Shown: in pieces, positions 12,616 through 38,574 of the stretch
Position numbering within the stretch: the stretch's first letter is position 1
Layout: each line of letters begins with the position of its first letter
Source of the DNA: Gemmatimonadota bacterium
GTDB lineage: Bacteria > Gemmatimonadota > Gemmatimonadetes > Gemmatimonadales > Gemmatimonadaceae
NCBI GenBank assembly: GCA_028287235.1
Contig: JAQBQB010000030.1
Coordinates: forward strand, 62,001 to 126,000
DNA length: 64,000 bases
Reading direction: 5' to 3'
Notes under the pieces: generated by a model
What the model saw: only the letters and a program-made list of their open reading frames with translations
Told to the model about the DNA's origin: nothing
The model's database searches: none
Made by a program: the position numbers and the translations under genes

Positions 12616-14145
12616 ATGGCCGAACAACCGGAGCTCAGCGGACCCGATCTCGCGCGCGGGATCGATGCCACCACCGTTCAACCGGGCGGCACGCTGCTCG
12701 GCCATGCCAAGGGCGAGGCGGTGTTGCTCGCGCGGCTCGGCGACGATTTCGTCGCGATTGCCGCGACGTGCACGCACTACGGCGGACCGCTCGCCGAAGG
12801 AGTCGTCGACGGCGACAGCGTGCGCTGTCCGTGGCATCACGCCTGTTTCAGCCTGCGCACGGGCGAAGCGCTGCGTGCGCCCGCGCTGAACCCCGTTGCA
12901 TGCTGGAAGGTCGAGCGGCGCGGCGATACGGTGTGCGTCACCGAGAAGATCGAGCGCGATCCGCTCGCGCCGACCTATCCGGCCACGGTCGATCGCGCGC
13001 TGTGGCCGCGCGACGTCGTCATCGTCGGCGCGGGCGCGGCGGGAAGCGCTGCCGCGGAGATGCTTCGGCGCTGCGGCTACGACCGCAAGATCACGATGGT
13101 CGACGACGACACCGGTTCGCCGTACGACCGGCCGAACCTCTCGAAGGACTATCTCGCTGGCAACGCGCCCGAGGAGTGGATTCCCCTTCGGCCAGGGGAC
13201 TTCTTCAAGCAGCACGACATCAATGTGGTGCGCGGCCGCGTGACGCGACTCGATCCCGGCGCGCAGACGCTCGACGTCGACGGCGTGGGGGCGTTGTCGT
13301 ACGACGCGCTGTTGCTCGCGACCGGCGCCGAGCCGGTGCACCTCTCGATACCCGGCGACGATCAGCCGCACGTGCACTATCTCCGCTCGCTCGCCGACAG
13401 TCGGTCGATCATCGCCGACGCGCTGCCGGGCAAGCGCGCGGTCGTGATCGGCGGGAGCTTCATCGGTCTCGAGGTAGCAGCGGCGCTCCGCGCGCGCGAG
13501 CTCGAAGTGCACGTCGTGGCGCCGGAGAAGGTCCCGCTCGAGCGCGTACTCGGCACGTACCTTGGCGAGTTCATTCGACAGTTGCACGAGGACCGGGGTG
13601 TGACGTTCCATCTCGAGCACACGGTGGCGAAGATCGAGCGCACGGCGGTGATTCTCGACGACGGCGACCGGCTCGCGGCCGATCTCGTCGTGATCGGCGT
13701 GGGCGTGCGCCCGCGGATGCAGCTCGCCGAGCAAATGTGCCTGGCGACGGACCGCGGTATCTCGGTGAACGAGCATCTCGAGACGAGCGTGCCCGGGATC
13801 TATGCCGCGGGCGACATCGCACGCTGGCCCGACCCGCACAGCGGGGAGGCCATTCGCGTAGAGCACTGGGTCGTGGCGCAGCGGCAGGGCCAAACGGCGG
13901 CGCGCAACATCCTCGGCGCGAAGGAGGTGTTCGATCAGGTGCCCTTCTTCTGGAGCGCACACTACGACGTGAGCATCAGGTACGTGGGACACGCCGAGAA
14001 GTGGGACGACGTACAGGTGGACGGCGACACCGAAAAGCGGGACGTGGCGGTGCGGTATCTGCGCGGCGGAAAGTTGTTGGCGTTGGCGACGCTGTTTCGC
14101 GATCGGGAGAGTCTGGAAGCGGAGTTGGAGATGGAGCGGGGGTAG
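12616..14145 (+). CDS. Rieske-domain FAD/NAD(P)-dependent oxidoreductase (AIF-like)
   Basis: A 509-residue fusion. An N-terminal Rieske [2Fe-2S] domain (about 10-110) has ligands C52, H54 (CTHYGGPL) and C71, H74 (CPWHHACF). A pyridine-nucleotide-disulfide oxidoreductase follows: FAD site VIVGAGAAGSAAAEML (about 135-150), NAD site AVVIGGSFIGLEVAAAL near 275, the second FAD motif GIYAAGDIARWPDP, and a C-terminal reductase domain. This is the layout of AIFM3/Nfrl-like and ferredoxin-reductase-like proteins. It presumably moves electrons between NAD(P)H and an unknown acceptor. It is cytosolic, with no signal peptide, and shows no operon partner. Confidence 0.92.
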   Translation: MAEQPELSGPDLARGIDATTVQPGGTLLGHAKGEAVLLARLGDDFVAIAATCTHYGGPLAEGVVDGDSVRCPWHHACFSLRTGEALRAPALNPVACWKVERRGDTVCVTEKIERDPLAPTYPATVDRALWPRDVVIVGAGAAGSAAAEMLRRCGYDRKITMVDDDTGSPYDRPNLSKDYLAGNAPEEWIPLRPGDFFKQHDINVVRGRVTRLDPGAQTLDVDGVGALSYDALLLATGAEPVHLSIPGDDQPHVHYLRSLADSRSIIADALPGKRAVVIGGSFIGLEVAAALRARELEVHVVAPEKVPLERVLGTYLGEFIRQLHEDRGVTFHLEHTVAKIERTAVILDDGDRLAADLVVIGVGVRPRMQLAEQMCLATDRGISVNEHLETSVPGIYAAGDIARWPDPHSGEAIRVEHWVVAQRQGQTAARNILGAKEVFDQVPFFWSAHYDVSIRYVGHAEKWDDVQVDGDTEKRDVAVRYLRGGKLLALATLFRDRESLEAELEMERG

Positions 14146-26534: not shown

Positions 26535-26834
26535 CTAGGCATTTCGTTCGGCGAGCTGCCGGCGCAAATCGGCATTCTCGGCTTTCATGCGATCGAACTC
26601 TCCGTCGCCGGCAGTCACTTCGCGCGGACGGGAGATCGGCGACGTGATGCCCACCGCCTCGGAGTACTTCAAGTACGTGTCGATCGACGCGACGACGATT
26701 CGTGCTTCGACCGTCACCAGGTCGATGCCGACGAGCGAGACTCGCACCCATGCATCGATCACGATTCCCTTGTCGAGTACGCGATCGAGTACGTCGATGA
26801 GGGAACTGCCGCTAGGCGTGCGTTCAACAGCCAT
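26535..26834 (-). CDS. gvpA: Gas vesicle major structural protein
   Basis: A 99-residue protein with the canonical GvpA core [54 protein letters not shown], which forms the ribbed shell. After the core a tail of about 35 residues ends in a charged, probably coiled-coil segment ([18 protein letters not shown]), longer than typical 70-75-residue GvpA. AAGGACGG upstream of ATG 26834 is a fair ribosome site. It follows gvpJ by 47 bp and is the last structural gene of the operon, although it should be needed in largest amount. Confidence 0.95.
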
Positions 26835-26881
26835 GGTGTTCCGTCCTTGAGACTAGGTTCCTGGGCGCGCTCAGCTCAATA

Positions 26882-27250
26882 TCACGGTTTGCGAGACTTC
26901 GTTGATGCAACGGGTGCCGTCGGGATCGCCGCCGGTTGTGTGCTCTGCGCGATCCGGGTCAACTGCTCTTCGATGCGGGCGAGCCGCGCCTCCATGTCGG
27001 ACGCTGCCGGAACCGTGCCGCTGCCCGGCCCGTCTCCCATGGTCAGCCGCGGATCGTTTCGCCACCAGTTCAAGCCGATCTGTTCCGCCTTGTCGATCGA
27101 GCAGATGAGCAGCCTGACCTGAATCGTCAGCAGCTCGACGTTCGCCAGGTTGATCTTGATGTCGCCGGCGATGACCAGGCCCTTGTCGAGGACGCGGTCG
27201 AGGATGTCGACCAGGCCGTGCGTGCGCGTCGGGTGAAGGGACTCAGGCAA
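26882..27250 (-). CDS. gvpJ: Gas vesicle protein GvpJ (GvpA family)
   Basis: A 122-residue GvpA homologue: [20 protein letters not shown], then KINLANVELLTIQVRLLICS and IDKAEQIGLNWW. The AGDIKIN variant in place of AWVRVS and the WW after the core are typical of GvpJ/GvpM, minor shell proteins thought to act at the conical tips or in assembly. The C-terminal 50 residues are a short predicted coil (MEARLARIEEQLTRIAQ) and a Pro/Ala/Lys tail. It lies 20 bp after gvpK. Confidence 0.9.
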   Translation of the reverse strand: MPESLHPTRTHGLVDILDRVLDKGLVIAGDIKINLANVELLTIQVRLLICSIDKAEQIGLNWWRNDPRLTMGDGPGSGTVPAASDMEARLARIEEQLTRIAQSTQPAAIPTAPVASTKSRKP

Positions 27251-27270
27251 TCGGTGGCTCCAAACAATAG

Positions 27271-27624
27271 TTAGCGCAGTCGGCCCAACGGCCCGAGATC
27301 GATGTTGAGGTCTTCGTCGGTGAGCCCGAATACCCCTTTCAACTCGTCCATCCGCTGATTGAGCTTGAGCAGCGCCAGCCCGACGCGTTCGATCTCCGCG
27401 TCGGTCAGCGTGCCCCCGTCCATCCGGCGGATCGCCTGGTGTTCCAACACTTCCCGTAGCAGTTCTACCACCGTCAGTACGAGTCGCGCAAGTCCTTGCT
27501 CGACTCGCTCTGGATCGGCGTTGATTCGCTCCGGCAACGCGCGGGCAAGGGCGTGCAGCGCCGCGGTCGCCAGGTCGTCGGATGGCTGCTCTACGCCCTC
27601 TCCACCCTCCACCGAATCAAGCAA
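27271..27624 (-). CDS. gvpK: Gas vesicle protein GvpK
   Basis: 117 residues matching GvpK along most of its length: RINADPERVEQGLARLVLTV-VELLREVLEHQAIRRMD, then GGTLTDAEIERVGLALLKLN and a tail FGLTDEDLNIDLGPLG. GvpK is an accessory protein required for vesicle formation, of unknown biochemical role. It lies 3 bp after the preceding gvpF/L gene. Confidence 0.93.
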   Translation of the reverse strand: MLDSVEGGEGVEQPSDDLATAALHALARALPERINADPERVEQGLARLVLTVVELLREVLEHQAIRRMDGGTLTDAEIERVGLALLKLNQRMDELKGVFGLTDEDLNIDLGPLGRLR

Positions 27625-27627
27625 GGT

Positions 27628-28380
27628 TCAGTCCGCCAGGTTCATTCCGTGAGTACCGCCCGCGTCGGACCCCAGCGCACAGAAGCTGTACGGCGCCCGC
27701 GGCCCAATCACGAGGAAGCGAAATTCCCGGCCGCTCCGAACGGAACCCACAGCGGCCTTGTACCGCTCGACGTCGTCGCGCGCCACGAGGTGGGAAATGG
27801 TCCGCAGCGGCATCGGCGTGATCGTCTGATGGTCGAGCGTCCGGTGCACCAACGGCCCCGCGGCGTCGGCGAGCTTGCTGGCGATGTCGTCGGAGGCATG
27901 GCTGATCTCACCGGTCCGCATCTCCCGTTTTCGCAGCGTATCGAGATACTGCCGCCCCACGCCGCGAGTGTTCGGATCGAACATCTCCGGCAGCACCGGC
28001 TCGAGATCGTCGATCATGCGCTTGGTGGACGGAGTCACGAGCACCGTCATCTCGACGAAACCCTGCATCGTCGCCAGCAGCGGCTCGACCGACGCGGCGC
28101 GGCTGACCAGCGCGGCGCGACAGGCTTCGTCGTCGTCGAAGCGCTGACCGTAGCGCGCCGGTACGGGCGTCGACCCGGTCTCCATTGCCGCCTCGACGAC
28201 GTCGTTGTGCGCGCGAATGCCGTCGATCGAGACGGGCACGCCGCGCTCGACGTCGCTCACCCACGCGACCAACCCGTCGACCGGAATGGCGCGAACCCGG
28301 CCGCCGGCGACGCCGTTGAGCCCCGCCGGTACCACGGCGCGAAACTGATGTGGAAGCACGCAATACAGATGCGTCGTCAT
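27628..28380 (-). CDS. gvpF/L: GvpF/GvpL family gas vesicle protein (copy 3)
   Basis: A 250-residue GvpF/L protein: N-terminal ferredoxin-like fold starting HLYCVLPHQFRAVVP, the linker motif RAHNDVVEAAMETGSTPVPA-RYGQ (target of the family signature 'H..V...... ..LP..FG'), and a second alpha/beta domain. The C-terminal GP-x-x-PYxF motif appears as GPRAPYSFCAL. The family interacts with GvpA during nucleation. Of the three copies here this is the most divergent. Its ATG overlaps the upstream small gvp gene as ATGA. Confidence 0.88.
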   Translation of the reverse strand: MTTHLYCVLPHQFRAVVPAGLNGVAGGRVRAIPVDGLVAWVSDVERGVPVSIDGIRAHNDVVEAAMETGSTPVPARYGQRFDDDEACRAALVSRAASVEPLLATMQGFVEMTVLVTPSTKRMIDDLEPVLPEMFDPNTRGVGRQYLDTLRKREMRTGEISHASDDIASKLADAAGPLVHRTLDHQTITPMPLRTISHLVARDDVERYKAAVGSVRSGREFRFLVIGPRAPYSFCALGSDAGGTHGMNLAD

Positions 28381-28616
28381 GAATTCTCCGATTCTCGTCC
28401 CGCGCCGGACGAGATTCCGCGCATCGACTGGTCGAGCCCGCGGCGTAGCGAGCTCTCGACGGACGTCAACAACAAGCGCAGATCGAGCACTACCAAGTCG
28501 ATGTCGGCAATCGAGATCGTCACGTTGCCGCTGATCACGACGCCCTTGTCGAGGACGTGATTGAGCAGGTCGCCGAGCACGAGCTCCTCGGTGTCGATCT
28601 CGTCATCATGTGCCAC
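28377..28616 (-). CDS. Small GvpA-family minor gas vesicle protein (GvpS/GvpM-like)
   Basis: A 79-residue protein with a GvpA-type core: LGDLLNHVLDKGVVISGNVT, ISIADIDLVVLDLRLLLTSV. The SGNVTISIADIDLV variant and small size fit minor members such as GvpS or GvpM; sequence alone does not choose between them. It overlaps the upstream gvpF/L gene by 11 bp and the downstream one by ATGA, so all three are probably translated together. Confidence 0.85.
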   Translation of the reverse strand: MAHDDEIDTEELVLGDLLNHVLDKGVVISGNVTISIADIDLVVLDLRLLLTSVESSLRRGLDQSMRGISSGAGRESENS

Positions 28617-29436
28617 GGGCGGCCTCGCTCACGAAATGATACGGGGGCCACGGCCCGGTGAAGTCGAACCGGAAACCGTGCGCCCCGTGCGCCGCCAGGA
28701 GCGACGTGAGCGTTTTCTGAAAATCGTCCATCGCCGTGGGCGCGACGAGAAACGCCGCGTTGAGCACCATCGTTCCGGTGATCGAGGCATCCGCGTCGGA
28801 CACCCGCGGAATGGGCGACCGCACATGGCGCAGCGCGTGGGGCGCGAGCGTGGTCACGATCTCGTCGACGATCCGCTGGCTCACGGCGCGTGCCTCGGTC
28901 TTCTTTTCCGCCTCGAGCTTCCGCTCGAGCAGGTAGCGCTGGCCCGGCGACGCGGCCGCCGCGCTCTTCGCCATCTCGTCGAGCCGTGCGCTGAGCGACG
29001 TCACCGCGCCGAGCAGCTCGGCTTCCACACGATAGACGCGTAGCGCATACTCGCGCCCCTCCGCCACGCTCGCCAACGCCGAGCCGAGCTGCTCCGAGCG
29101 GTCGCGCAGCATGGCCTGTAGCGCGTCGCGGCCGCTGAAGAGGGAGAACATCGGCAACGGCACCACGGCGCCCTTCGTCTGGTCGCTCGCCCAGGTGAGC
29201 ACGAGATCGTGCGTCACCGCGCGCGGGCTGAGCCAGTCGACGTCGCCGCTGTTCGCCTCCATCACCGCGGGCGCGTATTGCGCGCCGTCGAGCACCGACA
29301 CGAGCGCGGCGACGCCGTCGCACGGCTCGAGCGCGACACCGGCGTCGTCCAGGCCGTTCGGCACGCCCGCGAGCGGCAGGTCCGCGGGGACGATGCCGTA
29401 CACGTACCACATCGAGTTGGACGACGGCGAAGGCAT
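28606..29436 (-). CDS. gvpF/L: GvpF/GvpL family gas vesicle protein (copy 2)
   Basis: 276 residues. The family start is MWYVYGIVPADLPLAGVP, close to the usual YVYGIV; the eight residues before it may be extra. The middle signature VLTWASDQTKGAVVPLPMFS fits the family 'vlPl.fg' region. A charged helical hairpin follows (LERKLEAEKKTEARAVSQRI), then the C-terminal motif GPWPPYHFVSE shared with copy 1. It begins 10 bp after the ArsA-type gene. Confidence 0.9.
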   Translation of the reverse strand: MPSPSSNSMWYVYGIVPADLPLAGVPNGLDDAGVALEPCDGVAALVSVLDGAQYAPAVMEANSGDVDWLSPRAVTHDLVLTWASDQTKGAVVPLPMFSLFSGRDALQAMLRDRSEQLGSALASVAEGREYALRVYRVEAELLGAVTSLSARLDEMAKSAAAASPGQRYLLERKLEAEKKTEARAVSQRIVDEIVTTLAPHALRHVRSPIPRVSDADASITGTMVLNAAFLVAPTAMDDFQKTLTSLLAAHGAHGFRFDFTGPWPPYHFVSEAARGT

Positions 29437-29446
29437 TAGGCGACGA

Positions 29447-31300
29447 TCAGGTATTCGACGACAGCTCCATCCACGAGCGCGACCACTCGCGTAAGGCCGC
29501 CACGCCGATTGGCGGCGGGCGCGTTTCCCCGGCGCAAAACTGGTGTGCCGCGCGCGCTACAGGAAGAGGGGCGGGCGGATGCGTTACACGATTCCAACAC
29601 ACCGCCATCACGTCGATGCCGCGCTCGCGCACCGCCGCGACCAACCGCTCCGTCTCGGCGCGCACCACGGGCTCGTCGAGCGAGACGATCACCAACCCGC
29701 TGCGCGCCGGGTCGTGCAAGAGCGCATCCAGCACCTTCGTGCGCTTCGCGAAATCGAGGAGCTCTTGCGCCGTATCGCCCAGTCCGACGATGTCGCGGTA
29801 CTTGAGCAGGAGGCGCATGAGACGGTGCGACCAGTCGAGCGCGATCGCGGGCATCTCGAGCAGGCGGAGCAAGTGTCCCGTCGGTGCCGGATCGACGACG
29901 ATTCGCGCGAAGCGGCCGTCGGCCAGCGCGTCGCCGAGGATCGACAGCGCGTACAGCTCGTCGATGCCGGGCGGCGCGAGTGCGAGCAGATCGCGAACGA
30001 TGGCGCGATCCTGCTCGACGTCGACGCCGCGGCCGACGAGCGACTCGAACAGGGTGTCGATACGATTCTGATATTCGTCGCGAACGCGCGCGAAGGCCGC
30101 GGTGGCGTCCATCTGGCGAACGGTGAGTCCCGGCACCTCGGCCACCGCGTGCTCGACGTCGGCTTGCGCCCACTCGGCGTCGCTCCCGGCCAGGGCGTCG
30201 GCGATCGACGGTGCAGGATCGGTGGAGACGAGGAGCGTGGGTTTGGCGTCAGCATCTACCGCGGCGATCGCGATGGCGCAGGCGACGGTGCTCTTGCCCA
30301 CGCCGCCCTTGCCGCCGACGATGGTGAGCGTGCGCGCCGCGACCGCGTACGCCGTCGTTGGCAGGGCGCGACTAGGCCCGTCGGTGCCGGCCCGCGCCTT
30401 CGGCATGGACGCGCGCAGGCGCTCGAGTGTCTGCATCACAGCCGACAAACCCTGTGGCGGATTGGCGGCTCGCGGGATCCAGTAGGTCGGAATCGACGGG
30501 TCGAGCGACGCCGGCGTGCCGCGGCCGGCGGCGTTCACGATGACCGCCGCGATGCGGATGCGCAGATCGCGCAGCCGTTCGACGTAGCGCGCCGACTCGG
30601 CGGCGACGACGGGCTCGTCGCGCGTCACGACGAGGGCGGCGAGAGCGCGCTCGTCGGCGAGCGTGTCGCGCAGCGTGTCGATGCGCGCGCGCATCGCGTC
30701 GAGGAATTCGTCGGCGGCATCCCGGCGATACCGATGCGTCAGCGCGCGCACCATGAAGCGATGCTTGTTCTGCATCATGTCGAGCATGGACAGCAGCGCG
30801 CGAAACGTTTCCGGCAGCGCGAGGAGACGCAGCGTGTGTCCCGTGGGCGCGGTGTCGACGACGATGCGCGCGTAGCTGCCCGATCGGTCGGCGACGAGAT
30901 CGGCCAGGGCGAGCAGCGCAAAGATCTCGTCGACGCCCGGCAGCGCGGCGTCGACCAGTCCGTTCACGTCGTCGCGGTCGAGATACGTTCCGCGATCCAC
31001 GATCTCCGCGATGGTGTCGCGCCAGCGGTCGAGGAATTCCTGGCGAAGCTGCGCCGCCGAGAGTTGGCGCGCGTGGAGATTGGGCTCACCGTCGAGCGGA
31101 GCGGCGTGGGTCGACACCGGTACGCCGATCACGCTCGAGAGTGCAGCGGCGGGATCGGTCGACACGAGCAGCGTACGCTCGCCGCGGCGGGCGAACAGCG
31201 CGGCGAGACCTGCGGCACACGTGGTCTTGCCGACACCGCCCTTTCCAACGATCAACGACGTACGAGGTAGGCGGTCGAGGAGCGCCTCGACCGCGCTCAC
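29447..31300 (-). CDS. Tandem ArsA/Get3-family ATPase in the gas-vesicle operon
   Basis: 617 residues made of two SIMIBI ATPase halves. Half 1 has the deviant Walker A GKGGVGKTT (19-27), STDPAAALSSVIG and VVDTAPTGHTLRLLALPE. Half 2, from about residue 325, has GGKGGVGKST, STDPAPSIADALAG and VVDPAPTGHLLRLLEMP. Both P-loops look competent. The closest families are ArsA (arsenite pump ATPase) and Get3 (tail-anchored protein targeting). No arsR, arsB or arsD is nearby. Its ATG overlaps gvpG as ATGA and gvp genes flank it, so a role as chaperone or targeting ATPase for GvpA-type hydrophobic proteins is a reasonable inference. Confidence 0.9.
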   Translation of the reverse strand: MSAVEALLDRLPRTSLIVGKGGVGKTTCAAGLAALFARRGERTLLVSTDPAAALSSVIGVPVSTHAAPLDGEPNLHARQLSAAQLRQEFLDRWRDTIAEIVDRGTYLDRDDVNGLVDAALPGVDEIFALLALADLVADRSGSYARIVVDTAPTGHTLRLLALPETFRALLSMLDMMQNKHRFMVRALTHRYRRDAADEFLDAMRARIDTLRDTLADERALAALVVTRDEPVVAAESARYVERLRDLRIRIAAVIVNAAGRGTPASLDPSIPTYWIPRAANPPQGLSAVMQTLERLRASMPKARAGTDGPSRALPTTAYAVAARTLTIVGGKGGVGKSTVACAIAIAAVDADAKPTLLVSTDPAPSIADALAGSDAEWAQADVEHAVAEVPGLTVRQMDATAAFARVRDEYQNRIDTLFESLVGRGVDVEQDRAIVRDLLALAPPGIDELYALSILGDALADGRFARIVVDPAPTGHLLRLLEMPAIALDWSHRLMRLLLKYRDIVGLGDTAQELLDFAKRTKVLDALLHDPARSGLVIVSLDEPVVRAETERLVAAVRERGIDVMAVCWNRVTHPPAPLPVARAAHQFCAGETRPPPIGVAALREWSRSWMELSSNT

Positions 31301-31599
31301 TCCTCGTCGCGATCGCGTGCGACGCGCACCGGGCCGCCGGTCGTCGCCTTGCCGAGCCGTTCCTTCCAGGCGCGCACTTCGCGGAAGCGCGCCATCAGGT
31401 CCGCTTCACGGCGCATGTACTCCTCGTCATCGATGTCGCCGAGCTCGAGCTTCATCTGGAGCTCCATGAGCTCCTGCTTGATCGGCGTGTCATCGGTCAG
31501 CTCTTCTTCCGCCGCCTGCACCACCTTGCCCAACGACCACCGAATTCCCGCGACGGGACCGGTGACCGGGAAGAAGAGGACTTTGGACAGAAGGCCCAT
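31297..31599 (-). CDS. gvpG: Gas vesicle protein GvpG
   Basis: 100 residues with the GvpG pattern: hydrophobic start MGLLSKVLFFPVTGPVAGI, then RWSLGKVVQAAEEEL and an acidic helical hairpin ELMELQMKLELGDIDDEEYM-RREADLMARFREVR. GvpG is a small assembly factor found with GvpF/L. It lies 33 bp after the aldo/keto reductase stop and overlaps the ATPase gene by four bases. Confidence 0.93.
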   Translation of the reverse strand: MGLLSKVLFFPVTGPVAGIRWSLGKVVQAAEEELTDDTPIKQELMELQMKLELGDIDDEEYMRREADLMARFREVRAWKERLGKATTGGPVRVARDRDEE

Positions 31600-31632
31600 G
31601 TTGCCAAGGTACGAGCGACGAGCGGCCGGCCG

Positions 31633-32618
<986 letters not shown>

Positions 32619-32619
<1 letters not shown>

Positions 32620-33425
32620 CAGTCCGCCTTCTCCAGCTTGAGCTTGATGTTGACGAAATTGTACGGCGGCCACGGTCCCGAGTACTTGAAGGAGAGTACG
32701 TCCTCGTACTTACGGCTCGTCTCCTTCACGCGCTCGTCGAAGGCCTGTTCCTGCGCGCGGTCGACGAGGAATGCGGCATTGAGGATCATGCGATCGCCGA
32801 TTGGCTTGTTGGAGCGGCTCGCGACGGCGACCGGCTTGAGCGCGTCGTGGACGTCGGCGACGTAGCGCGCACCCATCTCTTCCAGCGCGCTCTCGATGAG
32901 CCGCCCGAGCTGCATACGCGCGAAGTAGGTCGAGCTCGACGTGTGCCGGCTGATCTCGTCCTTGAGCCGCCGAATCTCGTCGCTCTCGCGCTCGAGGTTC
33001 GCCACCACCTTCTCACGGTCCCACAGCACTTTGAGGCCGAACTCGATCTTGTCCTGCATCTTGGCGAGCACGTCGCTGAAGGCTTGATAGGTCGAGCGCA
33101 GCAGCTCGGTGACGTCGTCTTCCGAACGGAACACGGTGCCGAACGACATGGGGATCACGGTGTGCTCGCGCATCACCGTTTCATTCACGAACTCATGAGC
33201 GAGCACGTTCTCTCGCGTAGGATCGTAGATGACGATCGGCGTGTCGCTCACGACCGCGGCCAGGTCTTGGAACGCGACGGTGAACACTTTCTGGCCGCCG
33301 CCGATACCGATGGAGCCGAAGTCGCGCTGCCGGTCGACCCGTATGATGCAGTACACGTACTTTCCGCCGCCGTCCAGGGCGCCGTTCGAGGCGGAATCGT
33401 TATTACTGAGAGGAAGGTCCGTCAT
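32619..33425 (-). CDS. gvpF/L: GvpF/GvpL family gas vesicle protein (copy 1, first gene of operon)
   Basis: A 268-residue protein, the most typical GvpF/L of the three. It has [51 protein letters not shown], a helical middle, [16 protein letters not shown] and the C-terminal [13 protein letters not shown]. It heads the minus-strand operon. Upstream (33426-33542) is a spacer holding a weak promoter-like pair, so this is the likely transcription entry point. Confidence 0.93.
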
Positions 33426-35075: not shown

Positions 35076-35510
35076 CTACGCGATCGTGAGTGTTCCGGCC
35101 GCCTGGTCCACGGTCACCGACAGCTTTGGGAGTGGACTGATTCGCTCCCCCGTGCTCGGGCCGCGCACGACGGTGCCGTCGCTGGCGAACACCGAGAGAT
35201 GACAGGGGCACTCGAAGCGGTTGTTGGTAACGCTCGTCTCGCATCCCTGATGCGTGCAGATCTTCGAGAGCGCCACGAAGGCCGTGGCGCTCGTGCGCAT
35301 CACCGCGCGCTCGTGGCCGACGTCGACCAGCGCGCCCACGGTCGCGAGCGCGGGAAAGTCGGCCAGCTTGATCGTCGTGCCCGAGCCCAGCGTGACCGCC
35401 GTTGGACCGATCTGGCCGTCGCCGCAGCCCTCGGCCACGACGAACGCCGCGGCGGCGAGCGCCGCCTTCGCGAGAAAGTCGCGCCGGTTCACACAGTTCT
35501 GGCAGGCCAT
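35076..35510 (-). CDS. TAT-exported Rieske iron-sulfur protein
   Basis: 144 residues from ATG 35510. A twin-arginine signal (NRRDFLAKAALAAAAFVVAE, ending near a Cys) precedes a compact Rieske domain with ligand boxes CTHQGC and CPCHLSVF and the following GPSTGERISPLPKLSVTV. These are the full cytochrome-bc-type boxes with both extra cysteines for the disulfide. It is probably exported folded and held at the membrane by the uncleaved helix or lipidated at EGC. It is the last gene of a four-gene module, 40 bp after another Rieske gene. Confidence 0.9.
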   Translation of the reverse strand: MACQNCVNRRDFLAKAALAAAAFVVAEGCGDGQIGPTAVTLGSGTTIKLADFPALATVGALVDVGHERAVMRTSATAFVALSKICTHQGCETSVTNNRFECPCHLSVFASDGTVVRGPSTGERISPLPKLSVTVDQAAGTLTIA

Positions 35511-35550
35511 GACGTTGCGGGTTCGCGGGTTCGTGGTGAGAGTGTCGGCG

Positions 35551-36078
35551 TCAGAGGGTGACGAACGCGGTCTTCCACGCCGCTTCCTCTTCGTCTTCCT
35601 GATAGAGCTTATCCAGGTTGGCCACCACATTGTTCCCGTCTTTGCGCACGGCGAAGCGATCGAGCCCGCGCGTCGCACGGCCGCTGTCCTTCACGTAGAC
35701 CCCGTCGGCCAGATAGCGCGAGTGATGCTTCGGACACTCGAACTGGTTGTCCTTGTCGTACCAGCGAATCGCCGTGTTCTGGTGCGGGCAGGCGAGCGAG
35801 AAGAGGTACACCTTTCCCTGCCAGCGCGTCACGATCACGCCGTTGTCCTTGTCGATCTGCGTGCCGTCTTTCGCGGGGATCGCGTAGCTCTTGTCCTCGC
35901 GGCCGCCGCCCAGCGCGGCGATCAGCTCGAGCGGTGCGGCCGACGCGCCACTCGGCGTCGCGCCGAGGGCGATCAGCGCGCCCGCGGCGATCAGGCCGGC
36001 GTCGCGAAAAAAGTGACGGCGATCGACGAGGGCGCATCCGTCGCACGCCCCGCCGTCCTTTTCCTGGATGTCGGACAT
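35551..36078 (-). CDS. TAT-exported Rieske-domain protein
   Basis: 175 residues from ATG 36078. N-terminal CDGC, then a twin-arginine signal VDRRHFFRDAGLIAAGALIA. The Rieske-type boxes are CPHQNT and CPKHHSRY, with spacing fitting a [2Fe-2S] cluster but lacking the disulfide cysteines. The next residues, LADGVYVKDSGRATRGLDRF, are typical of this subgroup. It probably acts as a periplasmic electron carrier. It starts 8 bp after a membrane-protein gene and is clearly cotranscribed. Confidence 0.88.
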   Translation of the reverse strand: MSDIQEKDGGACDGCALVDRRHFFRDAGLIAAGALIALGATPSGASAAPLELIAALGGGREDKSYAIPAKDGTQIDKDNGVIVTRWQGKVYLFSLACPHQNTAIRWYDKDNQFECPKHHSRYLADGVYVKDSGRATRGLDRFAVRKDGNNVVANLDKLYQEDEEEAAWKTAFVTL

Positions 36079-36086
36079 CAGTCTCC

Positions 36087-36590
36087 TCAAGAGAAATTGG
36101 CGAGTGCCACGCCGGCGAAGGCGATCGTGAACCAGAGCGCCAGACTCCACTTCGCCGTTCGGCGCAGGCTGCGCCAACCGCGGGAGTCCTCGCCCGCGTC
36201 GCGTCGGAGCGTCTCCTCGGCACGCGTCATCATCAGTCCGTTGATCAGCAGCAGCACCACGAGCGCCATCTTGGTCCAGAAAATCCATGAGCCGAAGAAG
36301 GTCTCGATGTCGGCCGTCAGGAACGCGAGGCCGCTCACCACGATCACCGTGAGGCCGGTGATCACCCAGCGGTGAACCGACGCCAACTCCAGCAGCGGAC
36401 CCTCGCGCGCGGCCACCGGCAGCCGCAGCGCGCGAAACGTCGCGCGGTCCGAGGCGATCGCCAGCCCGCCGGCGAGCACCAATCCGCCAATGTGCAGGAA
36501 CTGGACGATCGTCGCCGCCAGCTTCGAATGACTATAGAAGTCCGCCCAGGGCTTGAGCAGCTGAACCAACGATTCCGGTGGTGTGATCAT
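36087..36590 (-). CDS. Four-helix membrane protein with conserved-looking histidines
   Basis: 167 residues with four predicted membrane helices: [20 protein letters not shown] (about 26-45), [20 protein letters not shown] (about 72-91), [20 protein letters not shown] (about 101-120) and [17 protein letters not shown] at the C-terminus. Histidines fall in or near helices (SHSK, FLHIG, SVHRW), which would suit haem b or quinone binding. I do not recognise the family with certainty. Four bp separate it from the upstream membrane gene and 8 bp from the downstream Rieske gene. Confidence 0.8.
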
Positions 36591-36594
36591 TCCT

Positions 36595-37218
36595 CTAGTG
36601 GTTCCAGAGTTTCATGGCGAGACCGCTCGCGATGGTCAGGCCCATGGCCGATAGGGCGATGGTGCGGTGCAGGCTCCGCTTGTCGGCGCTCGTCTCCGCC
36701 TCGTTGGAGAGCTTCGCGCCGGCATAGGTGAACGCACCGTCGGCGGTCAACATCGCCAATGCGTGCACGGTTCGCAGGGTCCTTCCTTGTTTGACCGAAC
36801 GGGAGTCCCACAAGTTCCACACGCCGGTGACCGTATTCACCGTGAACATGCCGGCGAGCGCGGTGGCCCCGACGCGATGGAATGTCTTCGCCCACGTAGG
36901 CGCGCCGCTACTCTTGTTGTATAGTTGTTCGCCCGCCGCATACTGCACTGCGAACACCGGAATCGTGGCGTACGCCACGTACCGGTGAATGGTGAGCCGG
37001 CGCGAGTACCATTCGCTGACCTCGACGACTCTGGGACGTCTTCGATTGGTGTCTGGCGGCGCCACCACCAACCTGGCGAGCGCCGTGTCGGCGGTCGGTG
37101 CGTCGCCGGCGACCGTCTGAACGCTGTCCAGTCGTGGTCGTGACGCCGCAACCGAATCGGCGGTCAAGCGGGCGCTAGTGGAGCCGATAATCAGAGACAG
37201 GAGTCCTAGCACGAGCAT
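36595..37218 (-). CDS. Membrane protein, cytochrome b561-like helix pattern
   Basis: 207 residues: a hydrophobic N-terminal signal or anchor, about 55 periplasmic residues, then four helices each with a histidine at a helix end: [58 protein letters not shown] and [20 protein letters not shown]. Four helices with one His each is the arrangement of b-type dihaem proteins such as cytochrome b561, although overall family is uncertain. It is first in the module with two Rieske proteins and diverges from the EAL-HDOD gene by 135 bp. Confidence 0.78.
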
Positions 37219-37353
37219 GAACGTCCTGGGGTCGAGGTAAGGTCAAGTTTGCCGTGATGCCCGCGACCCGCGTTCGCGCTGTCGCTTCGTACTGTTTGCA
37301 ATCAACCCGGCATACCGGGCCCCACGTTCCCCGCCAAAGCCGATTCACCACCG

Positions 37354-38574
37354 ATGAGCTCAATCTACGTCGCACGTCAGCCGATTTTCGAGCTCGGCAA
37401 GGGCCTGTACGGCTACGAGCTGCTGTACCGGCGCGACGCCTCCATCGAGCGGGCCGATGGTGAAGACGGTTACATGAGCGCAGACGTAATCGCCGGTGCG
37501 CTGCTCGGAATCGGCTTGCGGGCGATCTCCGGCGGCGGCGTGGCCTTCGTCAACTTCTCGCGCGGACAGCTGCTCGCCCGAAGCTGGGAGCTGTTCGACG
37601 CCGGCGGCGTGGTCATCGAGCTGCTCGAGAACGTGGAGTGCGACGAAGACACCGTGGCCGCCTGTCAGCACATGGTGCAGGCCGGGTACCGCTTGGCGCT
37701 CGACGACTACGTCTACGACGAGCGCACGCTGCCGCTGCTCGAGTTGGCGTCGATCGTCAAGATCGACGTCCTCAATCGGCCCATCGCCGAGTTGGAGCTC
37801 GTCGCCCAACAACTCGCGCCGTTCGGCGTGCGGCTGCTCGCCGAGCGCGTGGAGACCGCGACCGTCCGCGACGTGTGCGCGGATTTTGGCTACGAGCTGT
37901 TTCAGGGCTACCTGTTCAGCCGTCCCGAGACGCTCACCAAGACCGACGTCTCAGCGAGCCAGTTGGCGATCATGCGGTTGCTCAACCTGCTGCAGGACCC
38001 GAATACGCCCGACACGGTGCTCGACGCCGCCTTCCAGAGCGACGTGGCACTCTGCTACAAGCTGCTGCGCATCGTGAACGCCGCGTCGCTGGGCGGGCGT
38101 GGGATCACGTCGATTCCGCACGCCGTCCGCATGGTCGGCCGCGAAACGCTGCATCGGTGGCTGGCCGTGATCCTCGTCGCGTCACTCGGCCGGAAGGGCG
38201 ACGTGACCCATGAAATTGCCCTCACCGCGATCACGCGCGCGCGCATGTGCGAGCTGCTCGCTTCCAATGCCGGGAACGACAACCGCGGGGCCGGATCCGC
38301 ATTCATCGTTGGCCTGCTGTCCCTGCTCGACGTGCTGCTCGAGGTGCCGATGGAAAAGATTCTCGGCCGTCTCGAGCTCAGCGACGAGGTGCGCGGCGCG
38401 CTCCTCGGCCGCGGTGGCCCGTTCGGCACACCGCTGCAGCTCGTCGAAGCCTACGAGCGCGCCGACTGGAGCACCACGCGCGGCATGGCGAGCGACAATG
38501 CGGTGTCCGACGAGATTTTGCCGACGATGTACATGGATGCGCTGCAGTGGGCGGCGCAGCGCCTCACGGCGTGA
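37354..38574 (+). CDS. EAL-HDOD signalling protein, EAL motif degenerate
   Basis: A 406-residue protein. The N-terminal EAL-fold domain (YVARQPIFELGKGLYGYELL) carries YEL where active enzymes have EAL; VNFS, IELLE, LDDY, VKIDV, LAERVE and FQGYLF follow in order. Some metal and catalytic positions remain, but this subgroup (YuxH/CdgJ-like) is generally inactive as a phosphodiesterase. The C-terminal HDOD domain starts near 210 (NLLQDPNTPDTVLDAAFQSD ... LRIVNAASLGGRGITSI). CdgJ-type relatives influence motility; the nearby flagellar genes fit. Confidence 0.9.
   Translation: MSSIYVARQPIFELGKGLYGYELLYRRDASIERADGEDGYMSADVIAGALLGIGLRAISGGGVAFVNFSRGQLLARSWELFDAGGVVIELLENVECDEDTVAACQHMVQAGYRLALDDYVYDERTLPLLELASIVKIDVLNRPIAELELVAQQLAPFGVRLLAERVETATVRDVCADFGYELFQGYLFSRPETLTKTDVSASQLAIMRLLNLLQDPNTPDTVLDAAFQSDVALCYKLLRIVNAASLGGRGITSIPHAVRMVGRETLHRWLAVILVASLGRKGDVTHEIALTAITRARMCELLASNAGNDNRGAGSAFIVGLLSLLDVLLEVPMEKILGRLELSDEVRGALLGRGGPFGTPLQLVEAYERADWSTTRGMASDNAVSDEILPTMYMDALQWAAQRLTA

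Follow-up and report, generated by a model that had tools for sequence, protein, structure and literature searches.

In energy metabolism, Rieske proteins are known best as partners of a single type of membrane protein, cytochrome b. In MsrPQ, a haem-b membrane protein supplies a redox partner exported by Tat with electrons from the quinone pool. Di-haem bundles of the 4D2 kind have so far been made by design. The design of 4D2 started from the haem-binding core of bc1/b6f, its ligating histidines being placed on alternating helices, and CytbX, its membrane version, exchanges electrons with diffusive carriers including quinones (PMC10120048).

Gemmatimonadota are a soil and freshwater phylum in which electron transport is poorly known. 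The window analysed here is a stretch of 64,000 nucleotides from a 5.7 Mb genome of this phylum. Four genes, designated A, B, R1 and R2, follow one another on the minus strand of the window between 35076 and 37218 with gaps of only 4, 8 and 40 bp (Table 1). Thus the tight packing on which the initial annotation had based a four-gene electron-transfer module is real. A codon-usage gene caller, trained on the genes of the window with A, B, R1 and R2 among them, picked exactly these four. Our searches of papers yielded no description of the module. The operon is flanked by unrelated genes for a deoxynucleoside kinase, an HDOD/EAL protein, an ABC-F-like ATPase and an M20 peptidase; other genes were assigned by eye. 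Because the flanking genes are unrelated to the operon and depend on the lineage, a function deduced from neighbours was rejected, and no gene for an electron acceptor or donor was found near the module in the neighbourhoods examined. The window also carries a gas vesicle gene cluster at 26535-33425, of which GvpL/F at 32622-33425 was confirmed by Pfam while the others, several of them GvpA-like, were recognized by eye. In addition, a large run of flagellar-looking genes was seen by eye at 41140-63834. The organism may therefore carry both.

Table 1. Features of the operon and its upstream border; positions refer to the window.
Feature	Position	Strand	Length	Assignment	Residues and plan
Gene A	36595..37218	minus	207 aa	Predicted four-helix bundle; candidate di-haem b membrane cytochrome	Hydrophobic N-terminal segment, Pro/Thr-rich linker, helices 69-105, 108-138, 146-174 and 178-205; near-invariant H78, H114, H152, H184, one per bundle helix
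Gene B	36087..36590	minus	167 aa	Four-helix integral membrane protein	Invariant H33, H73, K107, D48, D94, N117, W153
Gene R1	35551..36078	minus	175 aa	Tat signal (DRRHFF) and Rieske 2Fe-2S domain	Cys pair C12/C15 before the twin arginine; ligands C97, H99, C115, H118
Gene R2	35076..35510	minus	144 aa	Tat signal (NRRDFL) and Rieske domain	Cys pair C3/C6; lipobox-like Cys29; ligands C85, H87, C101, H104; disulfide-type Cys C90 and C103
Intergenic region A / HDOD/EAL gene	37219..37353			Presumed site of the operon promoter, from gene coordinates	
HDOD/EAL-domain gene	37354-38574	plus		Divergent from gene A	

The distribution of the genes was determined in 298 Gemmatimonadota genomes. A was detected in 89 of these, strong-score matches of B and R1 in 86 and 98, and all three proteins together in 76. 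Every pair among A, B and R1 co-occurred with a Fisher p < 1e-46, a value which ignores shared ancestry. In 46 neighbourhoods with full flanks we found B 38 times, R1 39 times and R2 36 times; all four genes were together in 32. The standard gene order was A-B-R1-R2 (27 loci), and the set recurred in several families of the phylum in differing neighbourhoods. Beyond the closest relatives the neighbours were mostly unrelated to one another, which implies that the unit stands alone. Given this recurrent gene set and near-invariant histidines in 63 relatives of A and 58 of B, at about 30-67% identity to the query, the pattern is more than chance. The data thus support the view that A, B, R1 and R2 form a conserved four-gene unit. 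The initial annotation had staked its proposal on co-occurrence elsewhere and on conservation of the histidines, and it came through on both counts. Other phyla were covered by a genome-wide scan with a single pattern; among the best 80 loci all named ones belonged to Gemmatimonadota or a lineage of it. A search of plasmids with A and R1 gave no match, and plasmid-borne spread of the module was rejected on this ground.

The variants of gene order were informative as to pairing. Some loci carried A-R2 only, one family member had B-R1 alone (L157), and in permuted loci of the order A-R2-B-R1 one had an unrelated gene between the two pairs. A relative assembled as a single contig carried A-B-R1. 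We read the variants as suggesting two membrane-protein/Rieske pairs, A/R2 and B/R1, probably cytochrome/Rieske pairs which are also able to occur apart. The pairings are not strict; subsets and B-R2 occur. The same genome as that of the window has a second B followed directly by an R2-type Rieske gene on contig C28 (L149:9521-10582). Contig C9 harbours a lone R1 (L150) and a lone A (L039:9524-10123) between GlgE-like and amylase-like/maltokinase-like genes, the amylase-like gene being a trehalose synthase by gene order. A lone A is arranged in the same manner in a second genome (L114). In order-level relatives a B-type gene without A or Rieske gene lies about 5 kb or less from cupredoxin-like genes (L152, L161 and L163), which were confirmed by Pfam at L152 and L161 and identified by eye at L163. 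At L155:6377-7465 an R1-type Rieske gene directly follows a gene whose product, another kind of small hydrophobic protein, matches no Pfam family, an arrangement which suggests that the Rieske partner can be swapped.

The AlphaFold2 model of A consisted of four long helices with one His near the start of each; from residue 71 onward the mean pLDDT per ten-residue block was 89-98. H78, H152 and H184 were present in all 63 A sequences and H114 in 62 of them. The likeness to cytochrome b561 claimed initially, one His in each of four helices, is thereby upheld as a near-invariant feature of the predicted helices. Charged residues made up 0.1-5% of the helix cores of A compared to 24-42% of the loops between them (63 sequences), and they were scarce or absent in all eight helix cores of A and B (0.1-8%). 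On account of this low core charge A is most likely an integral membrane bundle, if one of only moderate hydropathy with family Kyte-Doolittle maxima of 0.8-1.45. In helices 1 and 2 the His is part of a heptad-spaced pattern with Ala/Ser at +4, Phe at +11 and Gly at +18. Helix 3 retains the Phe and has Met at +4 and Leu at +18, while helix 4 has Ala at +4 and Met at +18. In an up-down bundle, as predicted, H78 and H152 would lie close to one membrane face and H114 and H184 close to the opposite one. Apart from the putative His ligands, conservation was strictest at the H78/H152 face (Y71, R74, N128, T129, T131, G132, N135, R140); 11 positions conserved to at least 95% were located there as opposed to 4 at the other face, an overall difference that was not significant (p 0.25). 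Cues for the topology conflict. Going by charge counts the conserved face is inside, but it would be outside if A had a cleaved signal peptide; the hydrophobic N-terminus of A lacks the positive charge usual for a signal peptide. A comparison of helices 1-2 with helices 3-4 gave a P of 0.028, which is only suggestive of an internal duplication.

No Pfam or NCBIfam family was found above its cut-off for A. PF13301 (DUF4079) reached 15.6 bits, below the cut-off of 31.4, and matched 31 of the 63 relatives weakly. Neither of the cytochrome b561 families PF03188 and PF01292 exceeded its cut-off; PF01292, the prokaryotic one, gave weak matches in six of the 63 relatives and none for the protein of the window. 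The best matches of the A profile in the PDB were the designed di-haem bundle 4D2 and its variants with a whole-sequence E of 0.0017, yet each single stretch of the match was insignificant. The A model was superimposed on 4D2 with 2.0 Å over 104 residues (Z 12.3) and on cytochrome b6 (2e74_A) with 3.5 Å over 129 residues (Z 12.4), and designed bundles of other kinds outscored 4D2. A Foldseek search with the A model returned nothing at E 0.001. The match to the b561 structure 4o6y was weak (E 1.3) with generic helical bundles scoring higher, and cytochrome b561 was not among the 50 VIA-align matches listed, an absence which carries no weight. Because helical bundles match one another easily, we take the 4D2 match as suggestive and not as proof. 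The fold searches returned no specific fold for A beyond that of a four-helix bundle.

B displayed four clear transmembrane helices in a model with a mean pLDDT of 95.5 (AlphaFold2). Its two histidines, H33 and H73, are located within predicted helices and were conserved in 57/57 and 58/58 sequences, so that the description of B as a second membrane protein with His near its helices was justified. Weak profile matches were obtained with DUF2214, DUF6644, UPF0093 (HemJ) and CopD, all below the cut-offs, e.g. 17.7 bits for UPF0093 (cut-off 34.2) and 14.4 bits for TIGR00701 (HemJ, cut-off 138). UPF0093/HemJ matched 18 of the 58 relatives weakly, while DUF2214 and DUF6644 matched more members. Going by these profiles, B is a distant relative of the HemJ/CopD/DUF2214/DUF6644 membrane proteins. 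Charge counts put loops 1-2 and 3-4 inside, whence H33 and K107 would be oriented outward and H73 inward. With its two histidines near opposite faces, B could not simply use both to ligate one haem. Judged by these charge counts and by its relatives in the HemJ/CopD group, B is not b561-like.

The Rieske domains of R1 and R2 were recognized by Pfam (PF00355) with 26.6 and 42.6 bits, above the cut-off of 20.3, and the ligands C-x-H / C-x2-H were invariant in 42 R1 and 39 R2 sequences. The Tat signal of R2 scored 20.1 bits with TIGR01409 (cut-off 16.7). In addition, R2 has the RRxFL motif, a hydrophobic stretch and the lipobox-like Cys29, which was found in 37 of the 38 sequences with a residue at this position. 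Thus we regard both proteins, as was anticipated, as predicted Tat-exported Rieske proteins and R2 as a probable lipoprotein. Ser and Tyr near the cluster raise the potential in bc1. R1 retained both, S120 in 42/42 and Y122 in 39/42 sequences, and was devoid of the disulfide pair. In R2 the corresponding positions were mostly Ala and Phe. The initial annotation had attributed full bc-type boxes to one Rieske protein and a different subtype to the other. The disulfide Cys that give R2 this bc-type appearance here were present in only 12 of 39 R2 sequences, and it is R1 that keeps the bc-type Ser and Tyr. The R1 profile spans AioB, the Rieske subunit of arsenite oxidase, nearly end to end including the Tat signal region. 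Among PDB chains, the R2 profile matches the Rieske proteins of b6f and bc1. TIGR02694 (AioB) scored 22.5 and 39.4 bits, below its cut-off of 95.65, and the gene calls of the window contain no gene for a molybdenum enzyme adjoining the operon. Elsewhere in the window (12616-14145) lies a gene for a protein of about 509 aa, the N-terminal part of which includes a Rieske domain; judged by eye, this protein may be a Rieske-flavoprotein.

In both Rieske families the twin arginine is directly preceded by a Cys pair, in most cases of the form C-x2-C or C-x3-C. At least two Cys preceded RR in 34 of 47 R1 and 29 of 37 R2 sequences, and some of the exceptions had a short called N-terminus. Among 30 further RR-type N-termini from these loci none had a CxxC before RR; a loose pattern was used to select this control set, and some of its proteins are no Tat substrates. 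The Cys pair would belong to the portion of the Tat signal that faces the cytoplasm. One idea is that it serves as a check on cluster insertion before export.

A relation of the module to the bc1 complex was considered with regard to the host. The host genome and two congeners lack a cytochrome b of the bc family, and PF13631 is absent from the whole host genome. Alternative-complex-III-like genes, ActABC- and ActDEF-like, are situated at two contig ends of the host (L175/L176, contigs C4/C26); their names are a reading of gene order and of weak Qrc/Dsr-type matches. Across the phylum cytochrome b was found in 50 of the 89 genomes with the module (39 without) compared to 107 of 209 others (Fisher p 0.45). 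As the module does not follow the occurrence of cytochrome b, a replacement for a missing bc1 was rejected as a general rule, and this independence favors an accessory line over a substitute complex III. No cytochrome b match of the PF13631/PF00033 type was obtained for A, B or their relatives, and none of A, B, R1 and R2 contains the haem-c motif CxxCH. The missing family match and a different His pattern led us to reject a standard bc1 complex, in accord with the initial annotation.

What the sequence itself shows are the four genes with their linkage, the motifs of His and of Cys/His, two Tat signals, a lipobox-like Cys and helices nearly free of charged residues. We consider it an even call that the operon is a cytoplasmic-membrane electron-transfer module in which two membrane-cytochrome/Rieske pairs, A/R2 and B/R1, connect the quinone pool to a periplasmic partner. 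A would bind two b haems, one by H78 and H152 near one face and one by H114 and H184 near the other, and B, a four-helix scaffold resembling HemJ, may hold one haem b or more. Quinol or another membrane donor would most likely reduce the haems of both proteins, which would exchange electrons at the periplasmic side, A with R2 and B with R1. The Tat pathway would export the folded Rieske clusters, R1 being periplasmic or signal-anchored and R2 a lipoprotein, which may in turn pass electrons to a periplasmic partner encoded outside the operon. The reverse direction, from the outside to quinone, is also allowed.

A more ambitious version, to which we give a low probability, is an independently evolved quinol oxidoreductase of the Rieske/cytochrome b type that moves electrons between quinone and periplasm. 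In it a natural di-haem bundle, A, laid out as in 4D2 and without homology to cytochrome b, would work together with both Rieske proteins and with B as a haem protein of the HemJ type. Doubtful, in our opinion, is one stable complex of all four proteins that acts as an independent bc-like quinol oxidase with a Q-cycle-like electron split. Quinol would be oxidized between a haem of A and a Rieske protein, one electron going to the Rieske cluster and one across the haems of A. Two stacked haem sites are predicted in A, the genes are usually contiguous and the host is without a bc-family cytochrome b. The invariant polar cluster Y71, R74, N128, T131, N135 and R140 beside H78/H152 might be a quinone pocket. 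Yet the alignment with cytochrome b6, which also favors such a complex, is unspecific for a bundle, gene subsets occur alone and a cytochrome c subunit is missing. The host already possesses the alternative-complex-III-like cluster, and with cytochrome b in 50 of the 89 module genomes the distribution is not replacement-like. By analogy to MsrPQ, the haem-b proteins may instead take electrons from quinol and hand them to the exported Rieske proteins for delivery to a separate periplasmic enzyme encoded elsewhere, e.g. an oxygenase, a reductase or a repair enzyme. The small size of the proteins, the exported redox partners and an operon without a catalytic subunit are consistent with delivery of this kind, as are solitary relatives of R1, A and B in unrelated places (L150, L039, L152) and the cupredoxin-like genes near B in order-level relatives. 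However, no client enzyme was linked to the module in any neighbourhood examined, and a need for two cytochromes plus two Rieske proteins is left unexplained. We rate this analogy as possible but unlikely.

Two further readings concern the membrane proteins individually. B could be a divergent HemJ-like protoporphyrinogen oxidase, in which case the role of the operon would be in tetrapyrrole synthesis and the Rieske proteins would accept the electrons. As in HemJ, helix 1 of B retains a His and helix 3 a Lys. Of 40 genomes searched, 38 lacked canonical HemJ, as did the host genome, HemY matches in the host genome were below cut-off only, and the weak UPF0093/HemJ matches among the relatives of B fit as well. 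On the other side, these matches are far below the family cut-offs and are outnumbered by those of DUF2214 and DUF6644. The module is present in less than one third of the genomes, whereas haem synthesis is presumably needed far more widely, and exported Rieske proteins are not known to act as acceptors in tetrapyrrole synthesis. We find this reading very unlikely. It is also very unlikely that A operates without haem, i.e. that its four histidines bind another metal or serve the structure while the Rieske proteins work with B alone. Such a role would agree with the moderate hydrophobicity of A and with the fact that no family of known cofactor claims the protein. Yet the equivalent placement of a His in every helix, together with Ala, Phe and Gly at heptad spacing, resembles the layout of di-haem bundles, and the six weak matches to prokaryotic cytochrome b561 also speak for haem.

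If the two-pair electron-transfer module we prefer is correct, a Rieske set has a different, unnamed di-haem-like partner, and this kind of coupling would have been built more than once in nature. If A were a di-haem subunit reactive with quinol, this would amount to a second invention of the Rieske/cytochrome b principle. A would then also be a small natural test case for designed di-haem bundles.

Like bc1 and b6f, the module combines a four-helix bundle in the membrane, predicted to hold two b haems by bis-His ligation, with Tat-exported Rieske proteins encoded next to it, and R1 and R2 have the two Cys and two His ligands of the exported Rieske protein of those complexes. In contrast, bc1/b6f have two His on each of two helices and A has one on each of four; the module is without cytochrome c1/f, contains two Rieske proteins of which one is a probable lipoprotein, and occurs in genomes with and without cytochrome b. 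With cytochrome b561 A has in common four core helices with one His each, predicted to be ligands, and one haem site per membrane face, but it stays below every Pfam cut-off and is partnered with Rieske genes. 4D2 and CytbX, the best profile match in the PDB, resemble A in the His on alternating helices; they are designed while A is natural, with longer helices and a distance of +18 from H114 to the invariant G132. B is similar in size and four-helix plan to HemJ/CopD/DUF2214/DUF6644 proteins, the DUF2214 and DUF6644 matches extending over most of its length; it differs by scores below the cut-offs, two invariant His near opposite faces and the link to Rieske genes. R1 differs from AioB in that it lacks the disulfide Cys and no molybdenum subunit AioA is adjacent. 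The likeness to MsrPQ is one by analogy, with a molybdenum enzyme there and Rieske proteins here. Going by the features compared, the module is outside the bc family, the b561 families and HemJ, and it resembles other haem-b/Rieske lines.
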